DNA of 64,000 nucleotides from Spirochaetales bacterium. GTDB lineage: Bacteria; Spirochaetota; Spirochaetia; Treponematales; UBA12059. Under the pieces are notes generated by a model. The model saw nothing but the letters and a program-made list of their open reading frames with translations, was not told where the DNA came from and did not search any database. The position numbers and the translations under genes were made by a program. Below are positions 47,587-62,476 of the stretch, piece after piece (the first letter of the stretch is position 1; every line of letters begins with the position of its first letter). Where the stretch lies: assembly GCA_016926955.1 (NCBI GenBank), contig JAFGNN010000059.1, positions 62,001-126,000 of the forward strand, in the 5' to 3' direction.

Positions 47587-49005
47587 TCAGAAAGCGAGCG
47601 AGTAGCGGACCCTCAAGCCGAATTCGCCGAGCAAGCCGGAATCAGTCGAGGGCTGCCAAAATGGCTCCTGGTTGCCATCCGAGTTCGCGTCGGCGGGCAC
47701 GGTCAACGCGAGGCGATTCGCCACGTATCCGAAGGAGCAGGAGAGCGTGACCAGGAAATCGCCGAAGGCGCGGCTCCCGTCGAGGCTCGCCAGTATCCGC
47801 TTCTCCAGCAGGGCGCTGTCCAGCCACCGCGTGCCCGTCTCGGACCAATCCTCGCCATCGTGCCAGGGATTCGCCGGAGACTTGGCTCCCGACAGGGTGA
47901 ATTCCAAGCCGGTGTCCAGAGCGAAACCGGCGATTTCGGCCGCCCAGGTAGCCATCAAGGCCAGGCTGTTCTCGCCGTGAACGTAGCCGACCATCTGTTC
48001 CTCGAGCGGGATGCCGACGTAGTATCCCCCGGAATAGACCGCCGAGCCCGGGTAATAGGTGTAGGAATAAAACTCGCCGCCGACGGATGAGAAGGTGTAC
48101 TTCGTGGCCGCGGCGGCGTGCAGCCCGAGGAAGCCCCAGGGCGAGTCCCAGGTTCCGCCGAGCGACAAGGCGACCTTGTCGGGATTCTGTACGCCGGAAG
48201 GGTCGAGAAATCGGTTCATGTTGAAATCATCCACCAGGACCTGGCCGTACGCGCTCCATTCGCCGCCATCGTAGTCCGCGAAGAACCCGAGTATGGAATT
48301 CTGGTTTCCGAGCCGCGACCACGGCCGTCCGCTGGCGGTCGATACGTACTGGACGAAGAAGCCCGGCGCGGGATTCATGAAGAACAGCGGATCGAAGTAC
48401 GCGCCGGTGTAGACGCTCACGTCCTCGAACCCCACGCGCAGGCCGCCGAATTTGAGCCCGTAATACTTGAGGACCGCGCCGCGGTCAGAATCCAGGCGCG
48501 CGCCGTCGGTGGTCACCTCGGACTCGTAGATCCCGCCGTCCAGGTTCGCGTTGAGCCCTATCCAGCGATTCATGAAAAAGAAGCGTTCGCCGCTGTACGA
48601 GATTTCCCCGATCAGGGCCCTGCGGTCCGCGCCAGAGGCGAACAGCGAATAGGGCGACTCGATCACGTCCCGGTTCGGCAAGTGGCCGAAGGCGAGGTCG
48701 AGAGGGCCCAACCGGACGCTCATGCCCGCTTCGACGATCTCGGCCGCGGAGCCGCCATAGTAGCCGCCGAGGAACGGCGCGGGATATCGGCCCTCGGTGG
48801 AGACCGCGAGCAGCCAGATCACGGAAAACTCGTCGCTCCTGTGCTCCAGCCCGCCGACGACGTCAAGCCAGAACGGGTTCGCCGGCGGAGTCGCCTTGGA
48901 CGCTTCCGTCGTGAGCATGAGCCCGGATTCGGCGATGAAGTCGATCGCCGGGGAAGGCGCCGCCGCGAGCATCACAATCGAGACCAGGAAGGCCGTTTTG
49001 CGCAT
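47587..49005 (-). CDS. Outer-membrane beta-barrel protein near glycan genes
   Basis: A 472-aa barrel: signal peptide MRKTAFLVSIVMLAAAPSPA, then 14-18 predicted beta strands with Tyr/Trp belts (FSVIWLLAVSTEGRYPAPFL, RFFFMNRWIGLNANLDGGIY, EWSAYGQVLVDDFNMNRFL) and C-terminal Phe (GLRVRYSLAF). No sequence family is certain. Size and neighbours suggest a Wzi-like or porin-like role in surface glycan handling. Two adjacent ATGs occur, and the second (49005) has the better 4-5 nt spacing to AAGGAGGA. It is 26 nt downstream of the priming transferase, so co-transcribed. Confidence 0.78.
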   Translation of the reverse strand: MRKTAFLVSIVMLAAAPSPAIDFIAESGLMLTTEASKATPPANPFWLDVVGGLEHRSDEFSVIWLLAVSTEGRYPAPFLGGYYGGSAAEIVEAGMSVRLGPLDLAFGHLPNRDVIESPYSLFASGADRRALIGEISYSGERFFFMNRWIGLNANLDGGIYESEVTTDGARLDSDRGAVLKYYGLKFGGLRVGFEDVSVYTGAYFDPLFFMNPAPGFFVQYVSTASGRPWSRLGNQNSILGFFADYDGGEWSAYGQVLVDDFNMNRFLDPSGVQNPDKVALSLGGTWDSPWGFLGLHAAAATKYTFSSVGGEFYSYTYYPGSAVYSGGYYVGIPLEEQMVGYVHGENSLALMATWAAEIAGFALDTGLEFTLSGAKSPANPWHDGEDWSETGTRWLDSALLEKRILASLDGSRAFGDFLVTLSCSFGYVANRLALTVPADANSDGNQEPFWQPSTDSGLLGEFGLRVRYSLAF

Positions 49006-49031
49006 CATTCCTCCTTGGGGAACCCGGTTCC

Positions 49032-50396
49032 TCAACGTCCCTCGCGCTGGAGCACCGTCATGACGGTCTTGAACGATATGGAAACGTCGAGGAAAAGCGA
49101 CATGTTCTTCAGGTAGTAAAGGTCGTACTGCAGCTTTTTGTAGGTATCCTCGACCGAAGGGGAATGGTATTCGCCCGAGACCTGGTCCCAACCGGTGATC
49201 CCGGGTTTGACGAGATGCCGCTGGCGATAATAGGGAATGGCTTCCGCGAGCTCCTCCGCGATGTCGGGCCGTTCCGGCCGCGGTCCGACGATGCTCATCT
49301 CTCCTCGAAGGATGTTGACGATCTGGGGCAACTCGTCGATGCGCGTCGCGCGCAGGATCCGCCCGATCGGCGTGATTCGGGCGTCGCGTTCGGTCGTCGG
49401 AGAACTGTCGTTCCGGTCCACGCGCATGGTGCGGAATTTGAAAATCCTGAAGGGAACGCCGAATCGCCCGATGCGGATCTGCGTAAAGAGCACAGGGCCC
49501 GGACTCGTCGCCTTCACGAGGATCGCGACCAATGGCCAGAAGGGCAGGAAAAGGATGGACGCGAGCCCGGCAAAGAGCAAGTCGAGGATCCGTTTGCCCG
49601 TCTCATAGGCGTGCTTCGACTTCAGGTCGATGTTCTCGAGGAACCACGCCTCGTTGATGGCGCCGATGGGCACGCGCCTGAGGATCATCTCGTAGAAGTC
49701 AGGCAGGCGGATGAAGCGGACCTTGAGGTCCAGCAGGTTGAACAGCTCGGCGCGAGCCTTGTCCGATATTCCGGTTTCGTTCGCTATGACGAGGAGGTCG
49801 GAATCGGTCTCGTCGACGATGCGGCGCAGGTCGGACGCGTCGTGGACTACCAGCAGGCCCCCGGCATTCCCGGTCCTTTCCTCCTCGAGAACGAAGCGGG
49901 CATCGTATCCGAGATACGGACGGATCGCGAGCTCCTCGACTATCGTGCCCGCGTCCGAGTTGAAGCCGATGAATCCGACGCCTATCCGCTGCAGGTTGCT
50001 CCGGCGGAAACGGCCGTACGAATATCGCCAGACCCAGAACAGGAACGCATAGATGCCCGTGAATATGACGATGACGGTTTTGGGCTCTATCGGCGCGCTC
50101 GGAATCAGATAGAAGTAGACCGCCGAACCCAGGCCGGCGACAAGCACGCTGACGGCAAGGCGCTGCGCGAACAGGGCGTCGTCGAACGGCCGATCGATCC
50201 GGTACAGCCCGGCCGTATAGAACACGATGATCCAGCCCAGGAAGATCAACGTGAAATGCCGCATGTGGTTGGTCAGTCCGAACACGGTGGGAAGCTCGCC
50301 GTTCCGGACCACGAGAGCCAGGAACAGCGACAGATAGAGCAGAAGGATGTCCGCGAGGAGTATCCGCACCTGCCGTGAATGATGGGTCTTTCTCAT
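49032..50396 (-). CDS. Polyprenyl-phosphate sugar-1-phosphate transferase (WbaP/WcaJ type)
   Basis: A 454-aa initiating enzyme that transfers a sugar-1-phosphate from UDP-sugar to undecaprenyl phosphate. It has four N-terminal membrane helices, a Rossmann-like middle domain (VGFIGFNSDAGTIVEELAIR) and the catalytic C-terminal domain: KRILDLLFAGLASILFLPFW (re-entrant helix with Pro), FRIFKFRTMRVDRNDSSPTT, RATRIDELPQIVNILRGEMS and VGPRPERPDI. All key motifs are present. TTGCCT-N17-TAGAAT ends 12 nt before ATG 50396, inside the end of the GT4 gene, so it has its own promoter. It is the likely priming step of the locus. Confidence 0.95.
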   Translation of the reverse strand: MRKTHHSRQVRILLADILLLYLSLFLALVVRNGELPTVFGLTNHMRHFTLIFLGWIIVFYTAGLYRIDRPFDDALFAQRLAVSVLVAGLGSAVYFYLIPSAPIEPKTVIVIFTGIYAFLFWVWRYSYGRFRRSNLQRIGVGFIGFNSDAGTIVEELAIRPYLGYDARFVLEEERTGNAGGLLVVHDASDLRRIVDETDSDLLVIANETGISDKARAELFNLLDLKVRFIRLPDFYEMILRRVPIGAINEAWFLENIDLKSKHAYETGKRILDLLFAGLASILFLPFWPLVAILVKATSPGPVLFTQIRIGRFGVPFRIFKFRTMRVDRNDSSPTTERDARITPIGRILRATRIDELPQIVNILRGEMSIVGPRPERPDIAEELAEAIPYYRQRHLVKPGITGWDQVSGEYHSPSVEDTYKKLQYDLYYLKNMSLFLDVSISFKTVMTVLQREGR

Positions 50397-50437: not shown

Positions 50438-51514
50438 ATCGCTTTCCACCAGGCTCCCGTAGAGTTCGCGGTACGCGGCCCACATCCGATCCGCGGTGAA
50501 CCCCGATTCGTAGCGTTCCCTCGCGTTCCGCCCGAGCGTCGAAAGGCGGCCCGGGTCCCCGAGCAATCCGCGGAGGGCGGCGATGATTTCCCCGGCCGAG
50601 TTGCCGACCCTGGCGCCCGTCGTCCCGTCCACCAGTTCCCCGATCCCTCCCACGTCAGACGCCAGAACCGGCTTTCCGCAGGAGAAGGCCTCGAGGATGG
50701 ACATGGGCAGACCTTCGTAATCCGAGAGGAGCAGGAAGATGTCGCACAGATTCGCGTAGTCGCCGGCTTCGGGGAGCTCTCCGAGCATTTCCGCGTTCGA
50801 AGGCAGCTCGCCGGCCCTCGCGCCGGGAGGATCGCCTATCCAGAAAAACCTCGGCCCTTCCTTTTCCAAGGCCTTCGCGGCGGCGAGGAACAGGTCGAAG
50901 CGCTTCGGTGGCGCGAGCCGGGCGACGGCCAACACCACCGGCGAGCCTTTGCCCCGCGCCGCCAGCATGCGCTCCGCGGCGGGGCTTTCTGGCGTTCTCC
51001 CCTTCCGGTCCGTGACGCCGTTGTGGATCGCGGCATGCGCTTCCCGTATGCCGGCAAGCCCGAGATTGCGGAAGTCGTACGCCGAGACCGGGACGACGGC
51101 GCCGCAATGCCGCGCCAGAAAGCGCTCAAGCGGCAGGAACGATCGGTGGGATTTCAGGATGGTATCGAAGCCGTGGATGGTGTAGACGACCCGCTTCGCG
51201 CGACGGCCCGCGGCGACGCGTCCGAGGACGCCTGCCTTCGATGAATGGAGGTGGATGAGGTCGGGATTCCAGCTCCGGAACAGCCCCGCCAGTTCGAAGG
51301 CCGCCTTGAGATCGCTCAGAGGCCTGATCTCCCGACGGAGCGAACGGAGGACCTTGCGCTCCACCCGCGGATCAAGGGCGTCCCACATGGGCCCCTCTGG
51401 CACCGACGCCACGGCGCAGGGATGGCCGTCGCGAACGGCCCGGTTCGCGAGCTCGGTCACCACGCGCGGAGCGCCCCCCAAATCGGCGTTGGTGACTACG
51501 TGGAGTATCCTCAC
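50420..51514 (-). CDS. GT4-family glycosyltransferase
   Basis: A 364-aa GT-B enzyme: [20 protein letters not shown] start, LIHLHSSKAGVLGR, VYTIHGFDTILKSHRSFLPL, VVLAVARLAPPKRFDLFLAA (donor-domain start) and DYEGLPMSILEAFSCGKPVL with the E-x7-E-type motif. It would extend the lipid-linked glycan in the cytoplasm. The start is GTG 51514, overlapping the LicD stop as GTGA. Donor and acceptor are unknown. Confidence 0.88.
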   Translation of the reverse strand: MRILHVVTNADLGGAPRVVTELANRAVRDGHPCAVASVPEGPMWDALDPRVERKVLRSLRREIRPLSDLKAAFELAGLFRSWNPDLIHLHSSKAGVLGRVAAGRRAKRVVYTIHGFDTILKSHRSFLPLERFLARHCGAVVPVSAYDFRNLGLAGIREAHAAIHNGVTDRKGRTPESPAAERMLAARGKGSPVVLAVARLAPPKRFDLFLAAAKALEKEGPRFFWIGDPPGARAGELPSNAEMLGELPEAGDYANLCDIFLLLSDYEGLPMSILEAFSCGKPVLASDVGGIGELVDGTTGARVGNSAGEIIAALRGLLGDPGRLSTLGRNARERYESGFTADRMWAAYRELYGSLVESDLPRGR

Positions 51515-52437
51515 GACCCGCCTCCGGCCGCCGCGCGCTTCTTCGCCTCGTAATCTTCCCAGCGCAGGGCGGAAAAATGGGGATTGGGGCCGGTGATCAG
51601 GTAATGGTTTACGGCGTGGTCGACGCGCGCCGACTCGGGCGGCGGCGTCATGTAGTCGGGGCCGTACATCGTCGAAAGGTAACGATCCGGATCGGCCGGG
51701 CAAAGGAACTCCGCGTCCTCGAAACGGACGCGCCCGAGAGGGAAGATCGCCTCCTCGGGCCAGGCCTCGCGCATCCATTCAAGCGGATAATCGTTCGCCC
51801 AGACTGCCTCGCTCCGTTCTCCCCAGCGGAGGAACGCACGCGCGACGGGGCCGAGCCGCAGTACCGGCCGCAAGATCGCCTGCAGGAGCGCCCAAGCGCC
51901 GCTCCAGAGCTTGTGCTTGAGCGACCAGCCTCGCCGCGGCCAGTCGGGTTTGAGATCGTAGGGCGGCAACAGCGCGAACAGCTTGCGGAGCCGGTGCCGC
52001 CGCCTCGTCATCCTCGCCGCCGGGAAGATGTCGATCGGAATGCCTTGCGAATACGCAAAGGGGCCGCCGGGATCGTCCATGAAGCTGAAGCGGTCGCGCA
52101 GCTTGGCCCAGGCCACCGGATGCGCGGGGTCGGTCTCCTCAGTCTGGAGGAAAATGTCGTAGGGCAATGCGGTCGGCGCCAACTCGAGGAAGCGCCGGTA
52201 ATCGTCGAGCGGCATCTTCACGTCGACATCGTCGTCCCAGGGAATGAAGCCGCCGTGCCGCACCGCGCCGAGCAGGGTGCCCGAGTCGAGCCAGTAGCGG
52301 AGTCCCGCGTCGCGGCAGATCCTGTCGAAGACCTTGAGCAGCCTGAGCATGACGAGCTGGCAGCTCCGGAGCCCGGTGTCGCCTTCGGGCCGAAGGTCTG
52401 GAACGAGTTCGTCGAAATCGACCGGCGACTCGCTCAT
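51511..52437 (-). CDS. LicD-family phospho-group transferase, copy 1
   Basis: A 308-aa LicD-type nucleotidyltransferase-fold enzyme: [20 protein letters not shown] followed by [18 protein letters not shown], the G-S/T...D-D-D-x-D signature, then RFSFMDDPG and [14 protein letters not shown]. LicD proteins put phosphocholine or similar groups on surface sugars using CDP-activated donors. ATG at 52437 overlaps the rmlA stop (ATGA). No choline uptake or licC gene is in the window, so the donor is uncertain. A second copy is at 58111. Confidence 0.92.
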
Positions 52438-53303
52438 CCGCGCGCCGCCACGCGGGAGAGGTAGGCGCCGTACGCCGTCTTTTCGTAGCGCTGCGCCTGG
52501 GCCAGAAGTCCCGCCTCGTCCAGCCAGCCCTTGTGGAAGGCGATCTCTTCGAGACACGCGACGTAGAGCCCCTGGCGGTTTTGTATGGTCTCGATGAAGT
52601 TCGCGGCCTCGAGCAGGTCGCGCGGATTCCCCGTATCGAGCCACGCGAAGCCGCGGCCGAGCGTCTCTACCGAGAGTCGCCCCGCCTCGAGGTAGGCGTT
52701 GTTCACGCTCGTTATCTCGATCTCGCCGCGGGCCGACGGCTTCACCCCGGCGGCGACGCGGACCACCTCGTTGTCGTAGAAGTAGAGACCCGGAACCGCG
52801 TAGTTCGATTTCGGGACCGCTGGCTTCTCCTCGATGGAGAGGGCCTTGCCCCCCGGTCCGATCTCCACGACGCCGTAGGCGCGCGGATCGTCCACGTAGT
52901 ACCCGAATATGGTGGCGCCCTCGGTCCGGACCGCGGCGCGCTCCAGCACCGCGCTGAAACCCTGTCCGTAGAAGATGTTGTCGCCGAGCACCAGCGCCAC
53001 GCGGTCCTTCCCGATGAAGTCCCGCCCCACGATGAAGGCGTCCGCGAGTCCCCGCGGACTTTCCTGCACGGCGTACGAAACCTCGAGCCCCATCGCTCGC
53101 CCGTCGCCGAGCAATTCGCGGAAACCCCCGATGTCCCGCGGCGACGAGATGACGAGGATCTCGCGGATGCCCGCCAGCATCAGGGTCGACAGCGGATAGT
53201 AGATCATGGGTTTGTCGTACACCGGCAGCATCTGCTTCGACACCGCCACCGTCGCGGGGAACAACCTCGTCGCCGTTCCGCCGGCGAGAATGATGCCTTT
53301 CAT
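52434..53303 (-). CDS. rmlA: Glucose-1-phosphate thymidylyltransferase
   Basis: A 289-aa enzyme making dTDP-glucose from dTTP and glucose-1-phosphate, the entry to dTDP-rhamnose or related deoxysugars. [20 protein letters not shown] start, [51 protein letters not shown] and [16 protein letters not shown] are canonical. rmlB, rmlC and rmlD are not in the window. ATG 53303 has GGGAG 8 nt upstream. An in-frame ATG at 53321 overlapping the previous stop is the alternative. Confidence 0.96.
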
Positions 53304-53320
53304 GGATTCGGCTCCCTTCA

Positions 53321-54580
53321 TCAGTTTCGCTTGTCCGTCCGCCCGCCGCCGCCCGTCGATCCGGATAACTCCATCAGGAAATCCGCGACGCGCGCGCCCG
53401 CTTCGCCGCGGTGACACCATGCTTCCTCGCGCGCTTCCGCGATTGCCGCCGCCACCATCGGGTCGGACCGGACCGAGGCCACCAGTTCAGCGATACCCGG
53501 GAAGTCGTCGCTGTCGAGCTTGCGCCCGATCCTCTCGACCGTCCGGAATTTCCACGGTCGTTCCCCGACATCGCTCGCGTCGTAAGGGCGCGGGTCGAAA
53601 TCCTGGGCGACGTGGAGGACGGGACGGCCGAACAGGAACGCGTAGTCGAAGATTATTCCCGAGAAATCGGAAATCATGACATCGGCCCTCGAAAGTGAGC
53701 CCAGGTTTTCCCTCCCGAAATCCCATTCCACGTTCGCATACGGCTCAAGCGAAGCCCGAAGTTCGTCGAGCATCGACGTCTCGGACTTCACGGATTGGGG
53801 GTGGGGCCTGACGATCAATTCGAGGCCGCTCCGGGCCAGCGGTTCAAGCAATCTCATTCCATGGCGGGCGAGGATGCCGCTCGGCCCCCACGACGGCGAG
53901 ACGAGGACAGTCGTTCCGTCCCTGGATCCTGCCGCGAGCGTTTTCAATTCCTGCGCGTAGACGTCCAGGTAGGTGGAGCCGACGACGCGCAAGGCCTTCG
54001 CCGGGAGGCCCCGCCTGGCTTCCAGCTCGCGGATGGCCGCGGACTGGTAATCGCCCGAAAGCAAAACGGAATCGAAGTAGTCGAGCCCGAAAAGCCGGTA
54101 TGAAGTAGCGTCGTCCACGGCGTGCAGGATGTGCGCGTAATGTCCGACTCCGCGCGAACGTTTGAACTGGTAGACATCGAGCCCAGGAGTAGTGGTCAGG
54201 CATACGTCGGCCTCGAGCATGCGCATGCGCGCCCACGCGGCGTCGCCGGTTCCGATGTAGGAAGGCTTGAGCCTCGAATGCCCCGAGCTCAGGCCAGGGT
54301 CGGATTCCTCCATCGACAGGTAGCGCGCCTCCACGCCACGCCGCTCGAGCTCCTCCACCACCGGCTTGAAAACGTTCCAGTAGCGAGCGCCCTCCGAATG
54401 CAGCACGATCCGGGCGCGCTCGCCGCCTGAGACCCGGACGGACACGGCGCTCGCGCGCGCGAAGCGGCCTTTCAGCCACACCCAGAAATGCTTGGAGAAG
54501 AAGTAGACGGTCGTGGCCAGGCCCACGGCGATCGAAAACAGGGCGCTGCCCGTGCCCGGGTCGATGTACAGCGGATTCAT
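53321..54580 (-). CDS. CDP-glycerol glycerophosphotransferase-like (TagB/TagF) protein
   Basis: A 419-aa protein: an N-terminal membrane-proximal hydrophobic segment ([20 protein letters not shown]) and a GT-B-like catalytic part with [49 protein letters not shown] and [20 protein letters not shown]. Family enzymes move glycerol- or ribitol-phosphate from CDP-alditol to a lipid-linked acceptor and belong to teichoic-acid synthesis. In a diderm this suggests phospho-decorated surface glycan. The start ATG 54580 overlaps the stop of the YidC-like/sulfatase fusion (ATGA), so they are made together. Confidence 0.88.
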
Positions 54581-57267
54581 CGCGCGTAATCCCAGTTTGT
54601 TTCGGAGAAAAGATCGTCCTTCACCACGATCAGGTCTTCGGGGCCGAAATCGAGAGTATTCCGTTTCTGGTCGGACGGATCATACAGGGGCTTGTCGACG
54701 ATCGTCACGCTTTCGCCCGGCGCGAGCGTCCGGAACGGTTGCCCCGTGAACGGGTTCGCCTCGCGTCCGATAGTAGCCGTCGCCAGTGCCGGCGTATCCG
54801 CGTTGGTCCGGAACGAACGGTCGACGGCGAAATCCGAGTCCGAGCCGAAATCCTTCACCATGAAGAGCGGATTGAAGGCCGGGGCGCGGGTCGGATTCCG
54901 CGGGAAGTCCGCGAACTCCGGCAACGCTAGATCCGCTCCGTGATCGGCAACGATGATTATCCGGGTGTTGTCATAGACGCCTTCGGCCCGAAGCTTGTCG
55001 AGGAAGCGTCCGATCATGCGGAGAGACGCGGCGTTCACCCGATAGGTGCGCTCGGTGAAGTCGTCGGCGAAGCGCGGCGTGTCGGGCCGCCTCGGATTCC
55101 GGGCCGGCACCCAACCATCCGCGTCCAGGATCGCCGAGTCGTGCGCCGTGTCGTTGACCATCAGCGCGAACGAGTCCGCCCCGTCGTCGACGGCTACCAG
55201 CTCCGGCAGGTAATCGAGGGCCGCGTACTTGTCGATGAAGTCGGCGTACTCGTCCGGCACGTAGCGCGAGTCCCACCACTTGCCTTGATCGTATATGCCG
55301 TAACGGAGCGGGGTCGGCGCCAGCTTGAGGAGCGAAAACCGCGTCAGGCAACGGTCTATCCGGGCCGTCGGGTCGATTGCCATGCCGTGCTCCTCGAGCC
55401 AGCGCTGGGTGTAGCGGCCGGTGAGGTTGAAGGCGCGGATTCCAGGATATTTCCGGAATATCGTGTTGTCGGGCACCCAGCTGTAATTGGCCCAGGACGC
55501 GTCGCTGATGGCGCTGCGCCATCCCTCCTCGGCGAAGGCCCGGGGCAGGACCGCGAGCGCCTCGTTGTGCTTCGAAACGAGCGATTCCCCGGATCGGGCG
55601 TTGATGGCTTGCGGCGTGTACTCGTAACCGCCGTATAAGGGCGGAGCTCCGGCGAGCGTATGCGGATTGAACGAAAGCGTGTTCGGATACCAGACGAAAC
55701 CGCGGTATTTTTCCGCGAGACCCGGATCGTCCTCCATCGCGTACCGCACGAAGGCGCTGATGCCGCGATCGAGCATTATGACGAAGACGTTCCGGCCGGT
55801 ATTAGTGAACGTGAACGTCGGTTCGAATTCCCCGTCTTTCGGCACGCCTTCGTCGACCGCCCGGATAACGCGCAATTCCTCGAGTCCCGTCGCTATCGCG
55901 TACGCCTTCACGCCCGAGGTCGTCGCCAATCCGACGAGGCAGATGGCCGCCGCTGCCGACAGGACGCGCGCCTTACGCAGACGGATCAGCACGACCACGC
56001 CGAGCGCGGCCGCGAGCAGCGCCGCGATATTGAGGCCGCTCATGATCGTCGTCTCGCGGAGCACTCCCGCGCTCTGGAACAGCAATTGGGGGGAAATGGC
56101 GCCGTAGCTCCCGCCGAACGCGAACACGTTCACGAGCGCGCCCGCGGCCAAAACCGCGAACGCCGCGGCGAGGCCGGCGCGGGCCTTCCATCCGGCCAGC
56201 GCGTAAAGCAAGGCCGGCCAGAGGAGGAACAAGCCCGCGGATTCGGAGAACGCGCGGCCGATGAAGTCGGCCGGTCCGCGAGAGGCGCCAGCGAAAGCGA
56301 ACTCCTGCGGCGAGCTGCCGATCAGGGCCGAGGGCACCGCGATTCCCGCGAGTACCGTCAGGGCGAGCGCGGACAGGATGAAGACGCCCGCGGTTTCCTT
56401 CGGGTTCTTGAAACCCGGCGCCAGGGTACTGTCGAGCAGGCGGCGGCCGAGCGCGGCCAGCAGCGGCGCCGCAAGCACGAAGCCGGCGAGCGCGACGACG
56501 ACGAGCCGCTTGCGCGCGGTGGTGTCGAGCACGAACAGGGCCGCGCCGGCCGCCCCGACCGAGAGGATTGCCATGATCGCCCAGAACGCGACGAGCGGGC
56601 GCTTGAGCCGGTAGAAGACATTCTTGACGAACGAGAACATGTTGTTCAAGGTCCAGTAGAGCACCAGTCCCGACGGGGAAGCGTAGAGCAGAGCCAGGAA
56701 GATCGCGGCCATGCCGTAGAGCTGGGCTTTCTCGCGGACCGGAAGACCGCGCGCATAGACCGCCGAAGCCGCGACGTTAACCAAGGTCATGATTATCGGC
56801 AGCAGGTTGACGGCGGCTCCGCCGAAGCTCAACAGCCCGTCCGGTTTCGAAAGATCGCGCAGCAACCAAAAGCCGCGGCCGGACAGCTCCGGAAGGGACG
56901 AAAGGAACGAGTACGCCGCGATGAAGAACGGCACCTGCAGGAACAGGCCGAAGCTGCTCCGGAGCGCGTAGATCGGGTGGTAATGGTTTTGCCGATAGTA
57001 GGTCGAGAGGATCATCAGCCGCTCGTCGCCCTTGAACACGGCCTTGATGTCGTCGATCTTCGGCTGCAGGCGCTTCCGCGTTTCGCGCTCCAGAGCCTGG
57101 AGCCGTTCCGCCCGGGCGTAGAGCGGCAAGGTCAGCACGTTCACCGCCAGGCTGACGCCCGCGATGGCCAGGCCGGTGCTGTGCGTCACGCGCGAGAACA
57201 GCAGATAGACCAGCTCGATGATGCCTTCGACAGGAAAGATGACAAGGCTATGGAAAATATCAGCCAC
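54577..57267 (-). CDS. YidC-like/sulfatase-like fusion membrane protein
   Basis: An 896-aa protein. Residues 1-215 clearly follow the YidC/Oxa1 fold: SLAVNVLTLPLYARAERLQ, QPKIDDIKAVFKGDERLMIL, HPIYALRSSFGLFLQVPFFI and LYASPSGLVLYWTLNNMFSF. The groove Arg of true insertases (usually in xxRxLLLPL) is Asn-43. Residues about 220-450 hold several more membrane helices. Residues about 480-896 are an alkaline-phosphatase-superfamily domain: NVFVIMLDRGIS, LAGAPPLYGGYEYTPQA and IIIVADHGAD (metal site). I infer transfer of a phospho- or sulfo-type group to glycan on the periplasmic side. It overlaps the GT31 gene by 8 nt and the CDP-glycerol transferase gene by 4 nt. Confidence 0.87.
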   Translation of the reverse strand: MADIFHSLVIFPVEGIIELVYLLFSRVTHSTGLAIAGVSLAVNVLTLPLYARAERLQALERETRKRLQPKIDDIKAVFKGDERLMILSTYYRQNHYHPIYALRSSFGLFLQVPFFIAAYSFLSSLPELSGRGFWLLRDLSKPDGLLSFGGAAVNLLPIIMTLVNVAASAVYARGLPVREKAQLYGMAAIFLALLYASPSGLVLYWTLNNMFSFVKNVFYRLKRPLVAFWAIMAILSVGAAGAALFVLDTTARKRLVVVALAGFVLAAPLLAALGRRLLDSTLAPGFKNPKETAGVFILSALALTVLAGIAVPSALIGSSPQEFAFAGASRGPADFIGRAFSESAGLFLLWPALLYALAGWKARAGLAAAFAVLAAGALVNVFAFGGSYGAISPQLLFQSAGVLRETTIMSGLNIAALLAAALGVVVLIRLRKARVLSAAAAICLVGLATTSGVKAYAIATGLEELRVIRAVDEGVPKDGEFEPTFTFTNTGRNVFVIMLDRGISAFVRYAMEDDPGLAEKYRGFVWYPNTLSFNPHTLAGAPPLYGGYEYTPQAINARSGESLVSKHNEALAVLPRAFAEEGWRSAISDASWANYSWVPDNTIFRKYPGIRAFNLTGRYTQRWLEEHGMAIDPTARIDRCLTRFSLLKLAPTPLRYGIYDQGKWWDSRYVPDEYADFIDKYAALDYLPELVAVDDGADSFALMVNDTAHDSAILDADGWVPARNPRRPDTPRFADDFTERTYRVNAASLRMIGRFLDKLRAEGVYDNTRIIIVADHGADLALPEFADFPRNPTRAPAFNPLFMVKDFGSDSDFAVDRSFRTNADTPALATATIGREANPFTGQPFRTLAPGESVTIVDKPLYDPSDQKRNTLDFGPEDLIVVKDDLFSETNWDYAR

Positions 57268-58114
57268 GTGTTTTGCTCCGGTTCGCGAGTGCGCTCGAAA
57301 TGCGATTTACCAACGATTTTGTCCTGAACCGCCTGGCCACGAATCGGAAGCCGACATCGTACGCGCGCGCGAGCGGGCCTGGAGCGCGCGGCATACTCCC
57401 ACGGCGGAGCAGGTACATTTCCCTGATGCCGAGCGCGTGGTAGGCTACGGGATGGTCCGCGACGGGACGATCGACGACGATTCCGTTCCCGTCGAGATAG
57501 GGATTCCCGGGATACCGATAAGGAGGGCAGGAGTAGAAGCCATCGGCGAATGTTACCTTGACCGAACGCTCGCGCTTCGCGAGCCAGGCCATCGCCACAT
57601 CGCACGCTCCGGCCAGATCGGGGAACTCGCTCGGCCACGCGTCGATGAAAGCGGGAATCGCGGTAGCGAGCGCTTCGACCAAGGCGCGAGACAGCGCGAA
57701 TCCCGGACCGCCCGCGGGGAAGATCAAGCGTTCGCCGCGGATCTCCGCCTGCCCGCAATGCCCGCCGATCAGGAGCTCCCGTTCCGGATCGAAACCGGCG
57801 AGCAGCGCGCGGAGATTGTCGGCGTACACGTAGGCGTCGCACCCGGTCAGGAAATACCACGAGGCGCCCGGGAAGCGCCTTCGCAATTCCAGGAGACCGA
57901 GGAACTGCTTCTTGTGGGCCGAGGCGTAGTCCTCGCCCACCTCGGGCCCGAGCGATGCCATACGGAGTTCCGGGTCTGACTTCCAGCCGCCGATGAGCAG
58001 GGCGTTCGGGAAATCCCTGAGCCAGGTTTCCTGTACCGACAAGGCGCGCTCGCGCAGGTTCAACGCCGACGTGAAAACGCCGACGGCGACATTCTCGATT
58101 GAAAGTTCCTTCAC
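57260..58114 (-). CDS. Fringe-like (GT31) glycosyltransferase
   Basis: A 284-aa GT-A protein resembling Fringe/beta-1,3-glycosyltransferases: VAVGVFTSALNLRERALSVQ and ETWLRDFP start, WYFLTGCDAYVYADNLRALL (metal motif G-C-D-A-Y where many have D-D-D-T-Y), IFPAGGPGFALSRALVEAL and YHALGIREMY. It would add a sugar, often GlcNAc or Gal. The start ATG 58114 overlaps the LicD stop (ATGA). Confidence 0.8.
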   Translation of the reverse strand: MKELSIENVAVGVFTSALNLRERALSVQETWLRDFPNALLIGGWKSDPELRMASLGPEVGEDYASAHKKQFLGLLELRRRFPGASWYFLTGCDAYVYADNLRALLAGFDPERELLIGGHCGQAEIRGERLIFPAGGPGFALSRALVEALATAIPAFIDAWPSEFPDLAGACDVAMAWLAKRERSVKVTFADGFYSCPPYRYPGNPYLDGNGIVVDRPVADHPVAYHALGIREMYLLRRGSMPRAPGPLARAYDVGFRFVARRFRTKSLVNRISSALANRSKTRG

Positions 58115-59001
58115 TTCGACCCAGCTTTGCCGTTATGGCGCTCGTCCCAAGCCAGGCCGCTCCAATGCGGGTTCGGGCCGGTCGGGTAGATGGCGCCCAC
58201 CGCATGCTCGCTTTTCCGCTGTTCTTCCGGCGGCGGCTTCATGTAGTCGCCGAAGTAATCGGAGAGGTAGCGGTGGGGATCCGCGGGGCCGTGGAACTCG
58301 GCGTCCTCGAAGCGGATATCCTTGAGCGGGAACACCACCTCGTCGGGGAAGCGGTTCCGCCACCGGATCGGCGGCTCGTACGCCCAGGCGCGATCTCCCT
58401 TCTCGAACCAGGCGGCCACGGCCCGGCCGATCGGCTTGATCTTCGTCACGCCGATGAAGGCGTATTGCGCCGCGCCGAACAGCGCCCGCTTGAGGTTGCT
58501 CTTCAGCGGAAGCGAGCGCTCCGGAAGCTCGGGGCGCTTCGAGAGCGGCGGCAGCAGGGAGTAGAAATTCCTGAAGGCGTGCTGGCGTTCCGTCTCCTTC
58601 ACAGCGGGAAAGACGTCGATGAAGATCGCCTGCGAATACGGGTAAGGGCCGGTCTCCTCGACCAGGTGGCTGTAGCGGTCGCGGATCTTGACCCAAGGAC
58701 AGGAAAACCCGGGATCGGTCCGAGGCGTCTGGAAGAACATGTCGAAGGGAAGCTCGGCAGCCGCGATGCCGACGAAGCGATCGTAGTCCTCCTTCGGCAT
58801 GAGGACGTCCACGTCGTCGTCCCAGGGGATGAAGCCCCCGTGGCGCACCGCGCCGAGCAGCGTGCCGGCGTCGAGCCAGTAGCGGAGCCCGTTCCGTTCG
58901 CAGATTCCGTGGAAAGCCTTGAGCAGGCGAAGCATGACGAACTGTGCCTGCCTGAGCGGGGTGTCGCCCTGCAACCGATTGTCGGGAAGTTCTTCAGGCA
59001 T
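58111..59001 (-). CDS. LicD-family phospho-group transferase, copy 2
   Basis: A 296-aa paralogue of the LicD at 51511: [60 protein letters not shown] and IDVFPAVKETERQHAFRNFY. The signature acidic residues are intact. Two LicD copies in one locus suggest two different acceptor sugars or donors. ATG 59001 overlaps the GT2 gene end by 8 nt. Confidence 0.92.
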   Translation of the reverse strand: MPEELPDNRLQGDTPLRQAQFVMLRLLKAFHGICERNGLRYWLDAGTLLGAVRHGGFIPWDDDVDVLMPKEDYDRFVGIAAAELPFDMFFQTPRTDPGFSCPWVKIRDRYSHLVEETGPYPYSQAIFIDVFPAVKETERQHAFRNFYSLLPPLSKRPELPERSLPLKSNLKRALFGAAQYAFIGVTKIKPIGRAVAAWFEKGDRAWAYEPPIRWRNRFPDEVVFPLKDIRFEDAEFHGPADPHRYLSDYFGDYMKPPPEEQRKSEHAVGAIYPTGPNPHWSGLAWDERHNGKAGSK

Positions 59002-59812: not shown

Positions 59813-60690
59813 ATGGGGATCCTTTCCCAAGACTCCGGCACGACGTCGCCGAAGCGGTACGAATAGTAATGGTCGCGATCCTCGATCTCGCGGCGGTTCC
59901 AGACCGTAGGGGCGACAACGCGCTTTTCTGGCGAAGAATCGAGCCAGGCACCCCACCAGCTGAACGAGGAATTAGCCACGACGTGGTGGTCGCATGCCGA
60001 CATCATCGCCATGTCCTGCCAGCTCAGGGCGCCGCGATTCCAGTCCACGAACGTGGCCGGCGTCGGCCCGAGCTCGAGCGCGTTCCTGCAATACTCGAGG
60101 TCGTCGGAGAACACCAGGAACGAAGCCGCGCCGGCGGCGCGCATCGATTCGGCCGCTCGCCGATAATAGTCGGGCGTGCAGATATCGAGGTTCGGGTGCG
60201 CGAGGTAATCGCCGCGTCGGACGTGCACGCTGGCAACCGGGCGGCGGACGGATTCGAGGAGCCTGCGATTACGGTCGGAGAGCGGAGGCTTGAAGGCGAA
60301 CTCCGCCCTCAAGTCGCCGGCGATTCCCTCGAAATACTTCTCGCTCTGCCAGTAGCCTTCGAAATAGCGGTCGCCCGGCATGTCGTAGACCTCGGGTTGC
60401 CACCCGAATTTCCTGTCGATGAAATGCGTGCTTTTGGTGAAGTACTTCCGCCTGAACCGTCCGAGCGCTCCCCGGGGCTTCGTCGAAAGCCTGTCCACGT
60501 CCCGCGCTTCCGCGAGCGGCAGCGCCATAGCGAACAGGACGTCGAGCTCGAAGCCGTTGTGCGCCGGATCGTCGCCGAAGGCCGAAGCATCGATGAAGAT
60601 CTCGTCGCCCGTCGCCTTCCCGAGCGAGCGCGCGAAGGCGTACTGGAACATCTGGTTTCCGAGCCCGCCGTGGACCTTGACGATCTTCAC
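59809..60690 (-). CDS. GT11-family glycosyltransferase (alpha-1,2-fucosyltransferase type), copy 1
   Basis: A 293-aa enzyme with the family start VHGGLGNQMFQYAFARSLGK, donor motif ASVHVRRGDYLAHPN and motif III VVANSSFSWWGAWLDSSPEK. These are typical of alpha-1,2-fucosyltransferases using GDP-fucose. No gmd or fcl genes are in the window. It overlaps its neighbours by 4 nt on both sides. Confidence 0.92.
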   Translation of the reverse strand: MKIVKVHGGLGNQMFQYAFARSLGKATGDEIFIDASAFGDDPAHNGFELDVLFAMALPLAEARDVDRLSTKPRGALGRFRRKYFTKSTHFIDRKFGWQPEVYDMPGDRYFEGYWQSEKYFEGIAGDLRAEFAFKPPLSDRNRRLLESVRRPVASVHVRRGDYLAHPNLDICTPDYYRRAAESMRAAGAASFLVFSDDLEYCRNALELGPTPATFVDWNRGALSWQDMAMMSACDHHVVANSSFSWWGAWLDSSPEKRVVAPTVWNRREIEDRDHYYSYRFGDVVPESWERIPI

Positions 60691-61529
60691 GAAACGCCCT
60701 CTATCGTCGTCTTCCAGTAATCGATGAAAAGCGCTTCGGCCGAGAATCCCGAGCGATGGGCATCGTACCAGTCATCGAGTTTCGATTCGTCGAACGAGGC
60801 AAGCTCGTCCCACGAATCGACCGCAAGCATGGGAATTCCCAGCCGGATGAAATAATCGCTCCATGCTGATTTCTTGACTATCGGCACCGTTCCCAAGTAT
60901 AGGGCTTCCCAGGTGCGATGGCAGTCAAAACCATTGCCTGGAGGCGACAGCGCGAACTTGCAGGACGCCATGAGCGTCTGGAATTCCTCGATGCTTATCC
61001 GATTCTCGTTGCCTGTTCCGAGCGGGTGCCGTCTGGCCGCCGCCAAGGCCGGCTCGCGTTCGCGGCGATTCGTGGCCACATTGAACGAGCAGAAAATGCG
61101 GGTCTGCTTTTCCCCTCCGAGCCGCTTGATCCGCTCGATCCGTTCGACCTTTCCGGAGTTGCCGTAATACCGGTTTTCCAGACCTATCGGCAAAGGCGAC
61201 ACGCGCGGATCCTCGAAGAGGACGTTCTGTCCGAACCAATGACGGAGCGATGAAGGCAACAGCGCACGGAACTCGTCACCGAAGTTGATGTCGCTGTTGC
61301 CCGATACCAGCACGAAGTTCCGTCCACCGGCTTCCGCTTTGGCGCGAAGCAAGCTCTCTACGTGGTCGCCTTCGCAAAAGACTACTTCGGCTTCCGCGTG
61401 GCCCAGATCGGGACGCTTCCCTTCCACGCGGTGACGAATAAAGGCGCGGATGCCGTCGCCGGAAACGTATGGCGCGCTCGAACGCCGGAAGACATAGAAT
61501 TCCCTGCAGAGCCTGGTGTATGCGCTCAT
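60687..61529 (-). CDS. Exostosin/GT47-like glycosyltransferase
   Basis: A 280-aa protein with FALSPPGNGFDCHRTWEALY followed by LGTVPIVKKSAWSD, the donor-binding pattern of exostosin-like transferases. Upstream, FVLVSGNSDINFGDEF and RIFCSFNVATNRREREPALA form the Rossmann-like core. Donor unknown. ATG 61529 overlaps the next gene's stop (ATGA). Confidence 0.75.
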   Translation of the reverse strand: MSAYTRLCREFYVFRRSSAPYVSGDGIRAFIRHRVEGKRPDLGHAEAEVVFCEGDHVESLLRAKAEAGGRNFVLVSGNSDINFGDEFRALLPSSLRHWFGQNVLFEDPRVSPLPIGLENRYYGNSGKVERIERIKRLGGEKQTRIFCSFNVATNRREREPALAAARRHPLGTGNENRISIEEFQTLMASCKFALSPPGNGFDCHRTWEALYLGTVPIVKKSAWSDYFIRLGIPMLAVDSWDELASFDESKLDDWYDAHRSGFSAEALFIDYWKTTIEGVS

Positions 61530-62476
61530 GTTCCTCCGACGCTCCGATCCGATCTGAATGCGTGCAAGGCTTTTGAATGGATGTGCAGATTATGGATCGG
61601 AAAGAACCGGCCGCCATATTCCGCGATCGGAACCAACCTGTTCGCGTCGTCGCGCTCCCAGCGAACGGGCATCTCGGCCGCCGAGTACATGGCAGTCTCG
61701 TTGACGAAGCCCGGGCCGAGCGCCGCGTCATTGCGCGGATCTACCCCGCCCAGGTATTGCCCGAAAGCGGCGGCGTCGAACACGCCGCCGAACGACTCAA
61801 AATCCCGGTCGAGCAGGCCGAGATCCTTCGTGGCCAGTCCTGAACGGGAACGGAGTTCGTCCCGACCTTCCTTGTACCAGGCGGGTACGACGGGCAGGAA
61901 GGAGCAACGGTCTTTCCGATCACGGGCATAGCGGGAAAAAGCGTTCATGTCGTTCATCCTGCGGAGCAGGTAGCGCAGATTGTAGGTTCGGCAGAAGTCG
62001 GCCAAGGCCGCGGCCCCGTCGATGTAAACCACCGACGGGATGCAGCGCACAGTCGAGTCGGCCGGCAGGCTGATGCCCTTCGAAGTGTCTCCCAAAACGG
62101 CTTCCAGCTTCGCGACGTCGAAATATACCATATTGTCGTATTCGAAGTGCAAAACCGGCCCGAGATCCTTCGCGGCCATCAGATCGCCGAGGACGAAGAA
62201 GCGCTCGACGGCGAAACGCCAGAAACCTCCGCGGAACGTCGAGTTCATCAAATTCCAGCGCGAGAAGAACCGGTGGTGCCTCGTAGGCTCAAGCTCGGCG
62301 GCAGACACGCTTCGGCAGTCAGGATGGCGTCGGCACAGTTCATCGAGCTCCGGGAACCGCGCGTCGGTCACGATCCAGAGCCGGTTCCCCTGGTTGAAAA
62401 GATAGAACTGGTCCACAAAATCAGAAATATATGACGGGAATTCCCTGCCGCGGTGGACAATCACCGAATCGATCAT
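61526..62476 (-). CDS. Putative GT-A-type glycosyltransferase of unknown family
   Basis: A 316-aa soluble protein starting MIDSVIVHRGREFPSYISDF. WIVTDARFPELDELCRRHPD, WRFAVERFFVLGDLMAAKDL and GPVLHFEYDNMVYFDVAKLE look like a nucleotide-sugar fold with an acidic metal site (E-Y-D-N). IPIAEYGGRFFPIHNLHIHS, then KALHAF, is a conserved-looking C terminus. ATG 62476 has AAAGGAAA upstream. Setting in a solid row of glycosyltransferases supports the call. The specific family is not recognised. Confidence 0.55.
   Translation of the reverse strand: MIDSVIVHRGREFPSYISDFVDQFYLFNQGNRLWIVTDARFPELDELCRRHPDCRSVSAAELEPTRHHRFFSRWNLMNSTFRGGFWRFAVERFFVLGDLMAAKDLGPVLHFEYDNMVYFDVAKLEAVLGDTSKGISLPADSTVRCIPSVVYIDGAAALADFCRTYNLRYLLRRMNDMNAFSRYARDRKDRCSFLPVVPAWYKEGRDELRSRSGLATKDLGLLDRDFESFGGVFDAAAFGQYLGGVDPRNDAALGPGFVNETAMYSAAEMPVRWERDDANRLVPIAEYGGRFFPIHNLHIHSKALHAFRSDRSVGGT

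Follow-up and report, generated by a model that had tools for sequence, protein, structure and literature searches.

Enzymes of the LtaS/EptA type are phosphotransferases marked by a Thr nucleophile together with Asp/Glu, Asp-His metal ligands and a His, whereas sulfatases and phosphonate monoester hydrolases (PMHs) use a formylglycine made from Cys or Ser. In glycan modification of the Gtr type there are three components: a lipid-loading enzyme, a flippase and a periplasmic transferase. To our knowledge, the lipid scrambling by insertases has no clear physiological role in bacteria. Scrambling has been observed, in vitro or in simulation, for YidC and all the Oxa1-family proteins tested (PMC10491306). 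Regarding phosphonates, the PntC of Treponema denticola activates aminoethylphosphonate with CTP to give CMP-aminoethylphosphonate (CMP-AEP), and when PntC was discovered the surface attachment of such activated phosphonates was called unknown (PMC6697681). Here, we analyzed a 64,000-nucleotide stretch (hereafter, the window) of contig JAFGNN010000059.1 from a Spirochaetales bacterium, in which a single gene joins a YidC-like core to a domain of the alkaline phosphatase superfamily and is followed by a TagF-like gene. We conclude that this fusion, acting together with the TagF-like protein, probably transfers phospho- or phosphono-groups in the periplasm for the synthesis of envelope glycans.

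According to the analysis of open reading frames (ORFs), the fusion starts with a GTG codon and runs from 57267 to 54577 on the minus strand. Pfam gave a 60KD_IMP (PF02096) match above its cut-off over residues 32-219 (E=3.3e-22), and the core contains QxPFF and SPSGLVLYW-type motifs, as in YidC/Oxa1. Using NCBIfam, YidC families were the sole convincing matches, every one under its cut-off (78.1 bits for yidC_oxa1_cterm, against 84.3). The Pfam matches to Sulfatase and Phosphodiest, at residues ~750-780, stayed under the curated cut-offs, and a profile search with the fusion sequence retrieved YidC (4utq/3wo7) and, more weakly, LtaS (1.9e-4) and sulfatases. An AlphaFold model of the fusion, obtained with 66 homologues, reached a predicted local distance difference test score (pLDDT) of 90.3 and a predicted template modelling score (pTM) of 0.84. 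In it, a YidC-type core up to residue 219, made of the long hairpin helix at 31-77 and four more helices, is followed by seven long helices (224-471) and an alpha/beta domain (485-896). When we compared it with solved structures by Foldseek, the N-terminal core matched E. coli YidC (6al2; 210 columns, root-mean-square deviation 3.7), and the C-terminal half matched PbgA/YejM, LtaP, LtaS, PMHs, EptA and MCR-1. The structure prediction, a check proposed with the original prediction, and the family matches bear out what had been read from the sequence: one 896-amino-acid (aa) ORF with a YidC/Oxa1-like N terminus, extra membrane helices and an alkaline-phosphatase-superfamily C terminus. The 4-nt overlap with the CDP-glycerol transferase-like gene (the TagF-like ORF, 54580..53321) was confirmed as well. 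Given the helix count in the model and the known topology of YidC, the C-terminal domain is predicted to lie in the periplasm, and the last five helices would correspond to the five-transmembrane (5-TM), C-terminus-out layout of LtaS/EptA/PbgA-type enzymes.

The residues D500, T537, H709, D775 and H776 are identical in 118/118 homologues. On sequence grounds this set, presumably equivalent to the LtaS residues, would suit a Thr-nucleophile phosphotransferase and not a formylglycine sulfatase. The sulfatase motif Cys/Ser-x-Pro/Ala-x-Arg is not present, Thr being found in all 118 sequences. So, from the sulfatase/phosphotransferase label first given to the C terminus, we kept the phosphotransferase part and dropped the sulfatase one because the putative nucleophile is an invariant Thr; the Pfam Sulfatase match, under its cut-off, was a further reason to reject a sulfatase identity.

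One could argue that the fusion is an artifact. In an order-level sample of 99 genomes, we found more than 45 collinear full-length homologues, mostly with 35-86% identity (21-27% for the most diverged), and 38 of the genomes hold the family in some form. In a phylum-level sample, 132 of 393 genomes, including a Brachyspira-like family, gave a match at E<=1e-20, some of the weakest probably being ordinary YidC. The best 80 matches of a contig scan comprised 78 named loci with at least 117 full-length copies, nearly all from Treponema or other spirochaetes. Full-length homologues are known from dozens of Spirochaetota genomes, Treponema and Brachyspira-like ones included ('Brachyspira-like', and T. 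denticola for some genomes, are tentative labels of our own, and T. putidum is named by its record). The sets of 51 and 118 homologues used here overlap. Since dozens of full-length homologues are collinear, with lengths of ~870-960 aa, we can exclude both chance and a sequencing frameshift joining two genes, the artifact raised with the original prediction. Tandem copies are common, with two to four per locus.

Two loci deserve separate mention. In Treponema putidum OMZ 758 (L134) there are two-gene versions, in which a YidC-like part of 367 aa precedes a phosphatase-fold ORF (L134:20667-21767 and the next ORF), adjoining a diverged TagF-like gene; one fusion copy of this strain (L134:16658-19359) looks broken into ORFs of 221 and 664 aa. 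On a contig labelled as an uncultured Clostridia metagenome-assembled genome (L145) there are three fusions together with a TagF-like gene and genes for phosphonates (a cytidylyltransferase/phosphoenolpyruvate (PEP) mutase fusion, an Fe-alcohol dehydrogenase and a thiamine pyrophosphate (TPP) decarboxylase); either the family extends to Firmicutes or this contig was binned wrongly. We rejected a spread of the fusion on plasmids, as tblastn matches cover only ~22% of the query, within the YidC core, and most are annotated as YidC. We found no description of the fusion in the open-licence literature. The domains are singly of known kind; their combination, the Arg-less subfamily described below and the near-obligate pairing with a TagF-like protein look new.

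The TagF-like protein has an N-terminal membrane helix with the conserved motif YIDPGTGS. All 52 TagF-like homologues match Glyphos_transf (PF04464) at E<=0.01, and the protein from the window scores 23.4 bits (cut-off 22.1). By profile, the solved structures nearest to it are those of the capsule polymerase Cps3D (4e-8) and of TarL (5e-4). The model shows a GT-B fold, with TagF 3l7l at rank 4 and 8qoy at rank 10 of the Foldseek matches, although many other GT-B matches, epimerases included, score as well. The cytidylyltransferase genes linked to it suggest that this putative transferase uses a CDP- or CMP-activated donor.

The gene is present in all 38 fusion genomes of the 99-genome sample and in only 1 of the other 61, leaving out two very weak matches (Fisher p~1e-26), and a fusion is found no more than 500 bp from 33 of its 44 copies. 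Among Brachyspira-like genomes, where both genes are mostly unlinked, we detected it in 14 of 16 genomes with the fusion (one by a contig-end fragment) and in none of the 13 without (p~2e-6). That the two genes are inherited together even when unlinked speaks for a shared pathway, bearing in mind that the genomes are not independent samples. Neither LicD, present in 15/38 fusion genomes, nor PEP mutase, in 17/38, can be considered an obligate partner. Of the neighbors that a survey was proposed to look for, TagB/TagF or LicD genes, it is the adjoining TagF-like one that proves to be the key partner. The expected link to polysaccharide genes is strong, except that Brachyspira-like fusions sit outside glycan loci, with the TagF-like gene still co-occurring. 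In three loci of this family (L156, L160 and L161), the fusions lie among apparently unrelated genes, with no glycan cluster or TagF-like gene alongside; in these genomes the TagF-like gene is at another place.

Regarding the YidC-like core, it is the most conserved part of the protein. Pairs among the 51 homologues are on average 53% identical in the core, against 24% over the helices that come next and 34% in the domain of phosphatase fold, and the ratio of non-synonymous to synonymous substitution rates (dN/dS) between the window copy and its nearest relative is 0.10, 0.27 and 0.15, respectively. The same domain is the most conserved one between tandem paralogues of one genome. In a tree, the YidC-like domains, including the split ones, are set apart from the canonical YidCs of the same genomes by a 100/100 branch. 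This separate branch, together with the canonical YidC also present in the genome of the window, led us to reject that the core is the housekeeping YidC, and its conservation, with a dN/dS of 0.10, that it is vestigial. Since the core is the most conserved part, transport of a lipid or headgroup fits better than the simple holding of a periplasmic transferase at the membrane, one of the roles first proposed for the repurposed fold. Conservation also between tandem paralogues would be expected if the domain handles a shared donor.

A positive charge is missing from the hydrophilic groove of the core. In the alignment, N43 falls on the groove Arg of B. halodurans YidC2, as originally predicted, and the residue at this position is polar and uncharged in every homologue: T19/N18/S14 in the set of 51 and T57/S52/N9 in the set of 118, with Asn in the three Brachyspira-like copies checked. 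The canonical YidCs from the same genomes have Lys in 14 cases and Arg in 4 (18/18). The proposed alignment thus finds the Arg missing throughout the family, with no positive charge in either set. That true insertases need this Arg was, however, too strong a statement: E. coli YidC tolerates R366N as long as position 517 holds an aromatic or hydrophilic residue, which may be Trp (R366N/Y517W), although in S. mutans YidC2, with a natural Trp at that place, the Arg is essential (PMC8920935). The fusion pairs N43 with W205, which by its motif presumably takes the position of residue 517. Because the substitution is tolerated in one species and the Arg is essential in the other, a repurposing of the insertase fold is likely but is not proven by the Arg loss, which by itself does not disprove insertase activity either.

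Genes for the supply of headgroups are frequent in these genomes. PEP mutase was found in 17 of the 38 fusion genomes and in 2 of the other 61 (p~5e-7), and several loci join the complete gene set for CMP-2-aminoethylphosphonate to the fusion operon. Two of them (L158 and L159) show a one-strand cluster of Ppm, Ppd, a PntC/aminotransferase (AEPT) fusion, a TagF-like gene and two or three fusions. In the genome of the window, no PEP mutase (Ppm) was found. On the same contig, outside the window and ~22-24 kb upstream of the fusion, an ORF (L154:15382-17223, minus strand) encodes a LicC-like cytidylyltransferase with a class I/II aminotransferase-fold domain, which may make the activated headgroup for the window locus. 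Given the lack of Ppm, this LicC-like fusion and the two LicD genes of the window, the headgroup of this genome is probably different from aminoethylphosphonate.

Observed are the architecture, the conserved active site, the loss of the Arg, a TagF-like partner that is nearly obligate and the frequent genes for CDP/CMP-headgroup supply; to these our proposal adds a reaction, a lipid donor and a transport role that we infer. Anchored to the inner leaflet through its N-terminal helix, the TagF-like GT-B enzyme would, judging from its family, load a phospho- or phosphono-group onto a membrane lipid from a CDP/CMP-activated precursor (CMP-AEP in many Treponema, a different headgroup in the genome of the window). 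Rather than insert proteins, the YidC-like core, its groove devoid of positive charge, would then carry or scramble the polar headgroup towards the periplasm. Finally, T537 at the metal site would attack the lipid-linked phosphorus, and the group would pass to a lipid-linked glycan or polysaccharide, much as LtaS and EptA act on ordinary phospholipids. Tandem copies would serve different acceptors from one shared donor. The transport step draws on the scrambling by YidC/Oxa1 proteins (PMC10491306), on the conservation pattern and on the need to join a cytoplasmic CDP/CMP enzyme to a periplasmic transferase. We prefer this three-step decoration of envelope glycans as an explanation, a serious possibility that stops a little short of probable, and we hold transport of the lipid-linked headgroup by the core, taken by itself, with at least the same reserve.

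Several points weigh against this proposal. Canonical YidC scrambles lipids too, so scrambling needs no special domain; the AlphaFold model is silent on ligands; Ppm is lacking from the genome of the window; the Brachyspira-like fusions are not beside glycan genes; and the co-occurrence p values are too small because related genomes were treated as independent. In addition, the TagF-like protein might act directly on a cytoplasmic glycan, with the fusion using ordinary phospholipids. In its fuller form, this last idea takes the C-terminal half alone as an LtaS/EptA-type transferase of phosphoglycerol or phosphoethanolamine from ordinary phospholipids. Independently of it, the TagF-like protein would decorate the same glycan with CDP-derived units in the cytoplasm, and the YidC-like domain would serve only to position the enzyme or to bind the acceptor glycolipid. 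In favor of this, the domain agrees with LtaS/EptA in fold and residues, the last five helices would follow the usual 5-TM layout and TagF relatives act on cytoplasmic acceptors. Yet we regard it as unlikely, for it accounts poorly for a YidC-like domain that is the most conserved part and for the near-obligate TagF-like partner, unlinked cases included.

Less likely still, the core could remain a protein insertase or chaperone, specialized for the transferase domain of the fusion or for the TagF-like protein, which it would help to fold. It keeps the YidC fold and the cytoplasmic hairpin, and the E. coli R366N/Y517W variant still works (PMC8920935); against this, the positive charge is lost in all homologues and kept as Lys/Arg in the canonical YidCs of the same genomes, the genome already has a canonical YidC, and the Arg is indispensable to S. 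mutans YidC2, which has that Trp as well. PMH and PbgA being among the top fold matches, the C-terminal domain could also resemble one of them in function, as a hydrolase of phosphonate or phosphate esters (like PMH) or as a regulator without catalysis (like PbgA/YejM), and serve to trim or sense envelope lipids. We consider this very improbable, as the Thr is invariant, where PMHs and sulfatases use formylglycine, and the linked genes are biosynthetic and not catabolic.

The features of the fusion and of the surrounding glycan locus are listed in the table. The Fringe-like gene upstream overlaps the fusion by 8 nt. In animals, the ribitol-phosphate portion of the dystroglycan glycan is made by RXYLT1 and LicD relatives. 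In the LicD locus of the window, an ORF at 60690-61529 (minus strand) shows a marginal RXYLT1_C match (27.4 bits, cut-off 27) and an Exostosin match; considering this match and the LicD genes, a polyol-phosphate glycan may be the product of the locus. No Pfam match was obtained for two ORFs within or close to the glycan locus, 61529-62449 and 47590-49032 (both minus strand).

Table. Position and supporting evidence of the fusion gene, its parts and the neighboring genes in the window.
Feature	Position	Strand	Evidence
YidC-like/alkaline-phosphatase-superfamily fusion gene, 896 aa	54577..57267	-	ORF, Pfam/NCBIfam, model
YidC/Oxa1-fold core, residues 1-222, five membrane helices and cytoplasmic hairpin	56602..57267	-	60KD_IMP, Foldseek, profile search
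N43 codon, groove Arg/Lys position	57139..57141	-	Thr/Asn/Ser in all homologues
W205 codon, putative place of E. coli Y517/S. mutans W234	56653..56655	-	W in 51/51
Seven-helix membrane region, residues 223-475	55843..56601	-	AlphaFold model
Predicted periplasmic alkaline-phosphatase-superfamily phosphotransferase-like domain, residues 476-896	54580..55842	-	Model, Foldseek, profile, invariant residues
T537 codon, putative nucleophile	55657..55659	-	Thr in 118/118
D775-H776 codons, putative metal ligands	54940..54945	-	Kept in 118/118
TagF-like putative CDP-alcohol phosphotransferase, 419 aa	53321..54580	-	Glyphos_transf, Cps3D/TarL profile, model, co-occurrence
Fringe-like glycosyltransferase	57260..58114	-	PF02434 1.2e-6
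LicD family phosphotransferase	58111..59001	-	PF04991 2.4e-37
LicD family phosphotransferase, second copy	51511..52398	-	PF04991 1e-38
Nucleotidyltransferase, RmlA-type sugar-1-phosphate by similarity	52434..53345	-	PF00483 1.3e-69
Bacterial sugar transferase, polyprenyl-phosphate priming enzyme family, same glycan locus	49032..50396	-	PF02397 4e-63

In sum, we tentatively suggest that a YidC/Oxa1 fold has become, in spirochaetes, a transporter of a lipid-linked phospho- or phosphono-headgroup joined to its own transferase, and that with its TagF-like loader it forms an undescribed two-gene pathway of glycan tailoring, which would provide the missing CMP-AEP transfer step in Treponema. The fusion family and its partner are concrete candidates for the CMP-AEP attachment steps and are present in culturable Treponema. 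The near-constant pairing of both genes in spirochaetes makes a new envelope-decorating pathway testable, and a physiological role of lipid scrambling becomes directly testable now that a domain of insertase fold is seen joined to a probable lipid-using enzyme.

Compared with YidC/Oxa1 insertases, the fusion has in common the five-helix core, the cytoplasmic hairpin and both sequence motifs, and differs in the Thr/Asn/Ser that replaces the groove Arg/Lys, in the attached enzyme and in being a paralogue of the housekeeping copy. With LtaS/LtaP, EptA/MCR-1 and PbgA/YejM it shares, at ~10-15% identity, a predicted periplasmic alkaline-phosphatase-superfamily domain after a membrane block, the position of the Thr nucleophile and the DH metal pair, to which it adds the N-terminal YidC-like core, two linker helices and the near-obligate TagF-like partner. 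This partner shares the Pfam match (PF04464) and the GT-B fold with TagF, TarL and Cps3D, but it is a single-domain protein with the YIDPGTGS helix and matches weakly, over part of the family only. Finally, the proposed loading inside, flipping and transfer outside recall the Gtr-type systems, to which we claim no sequence relation; here, flippase and transferase would be united in one protein, and the cargo would be a phospho- or phosphono-group and not a sugar.

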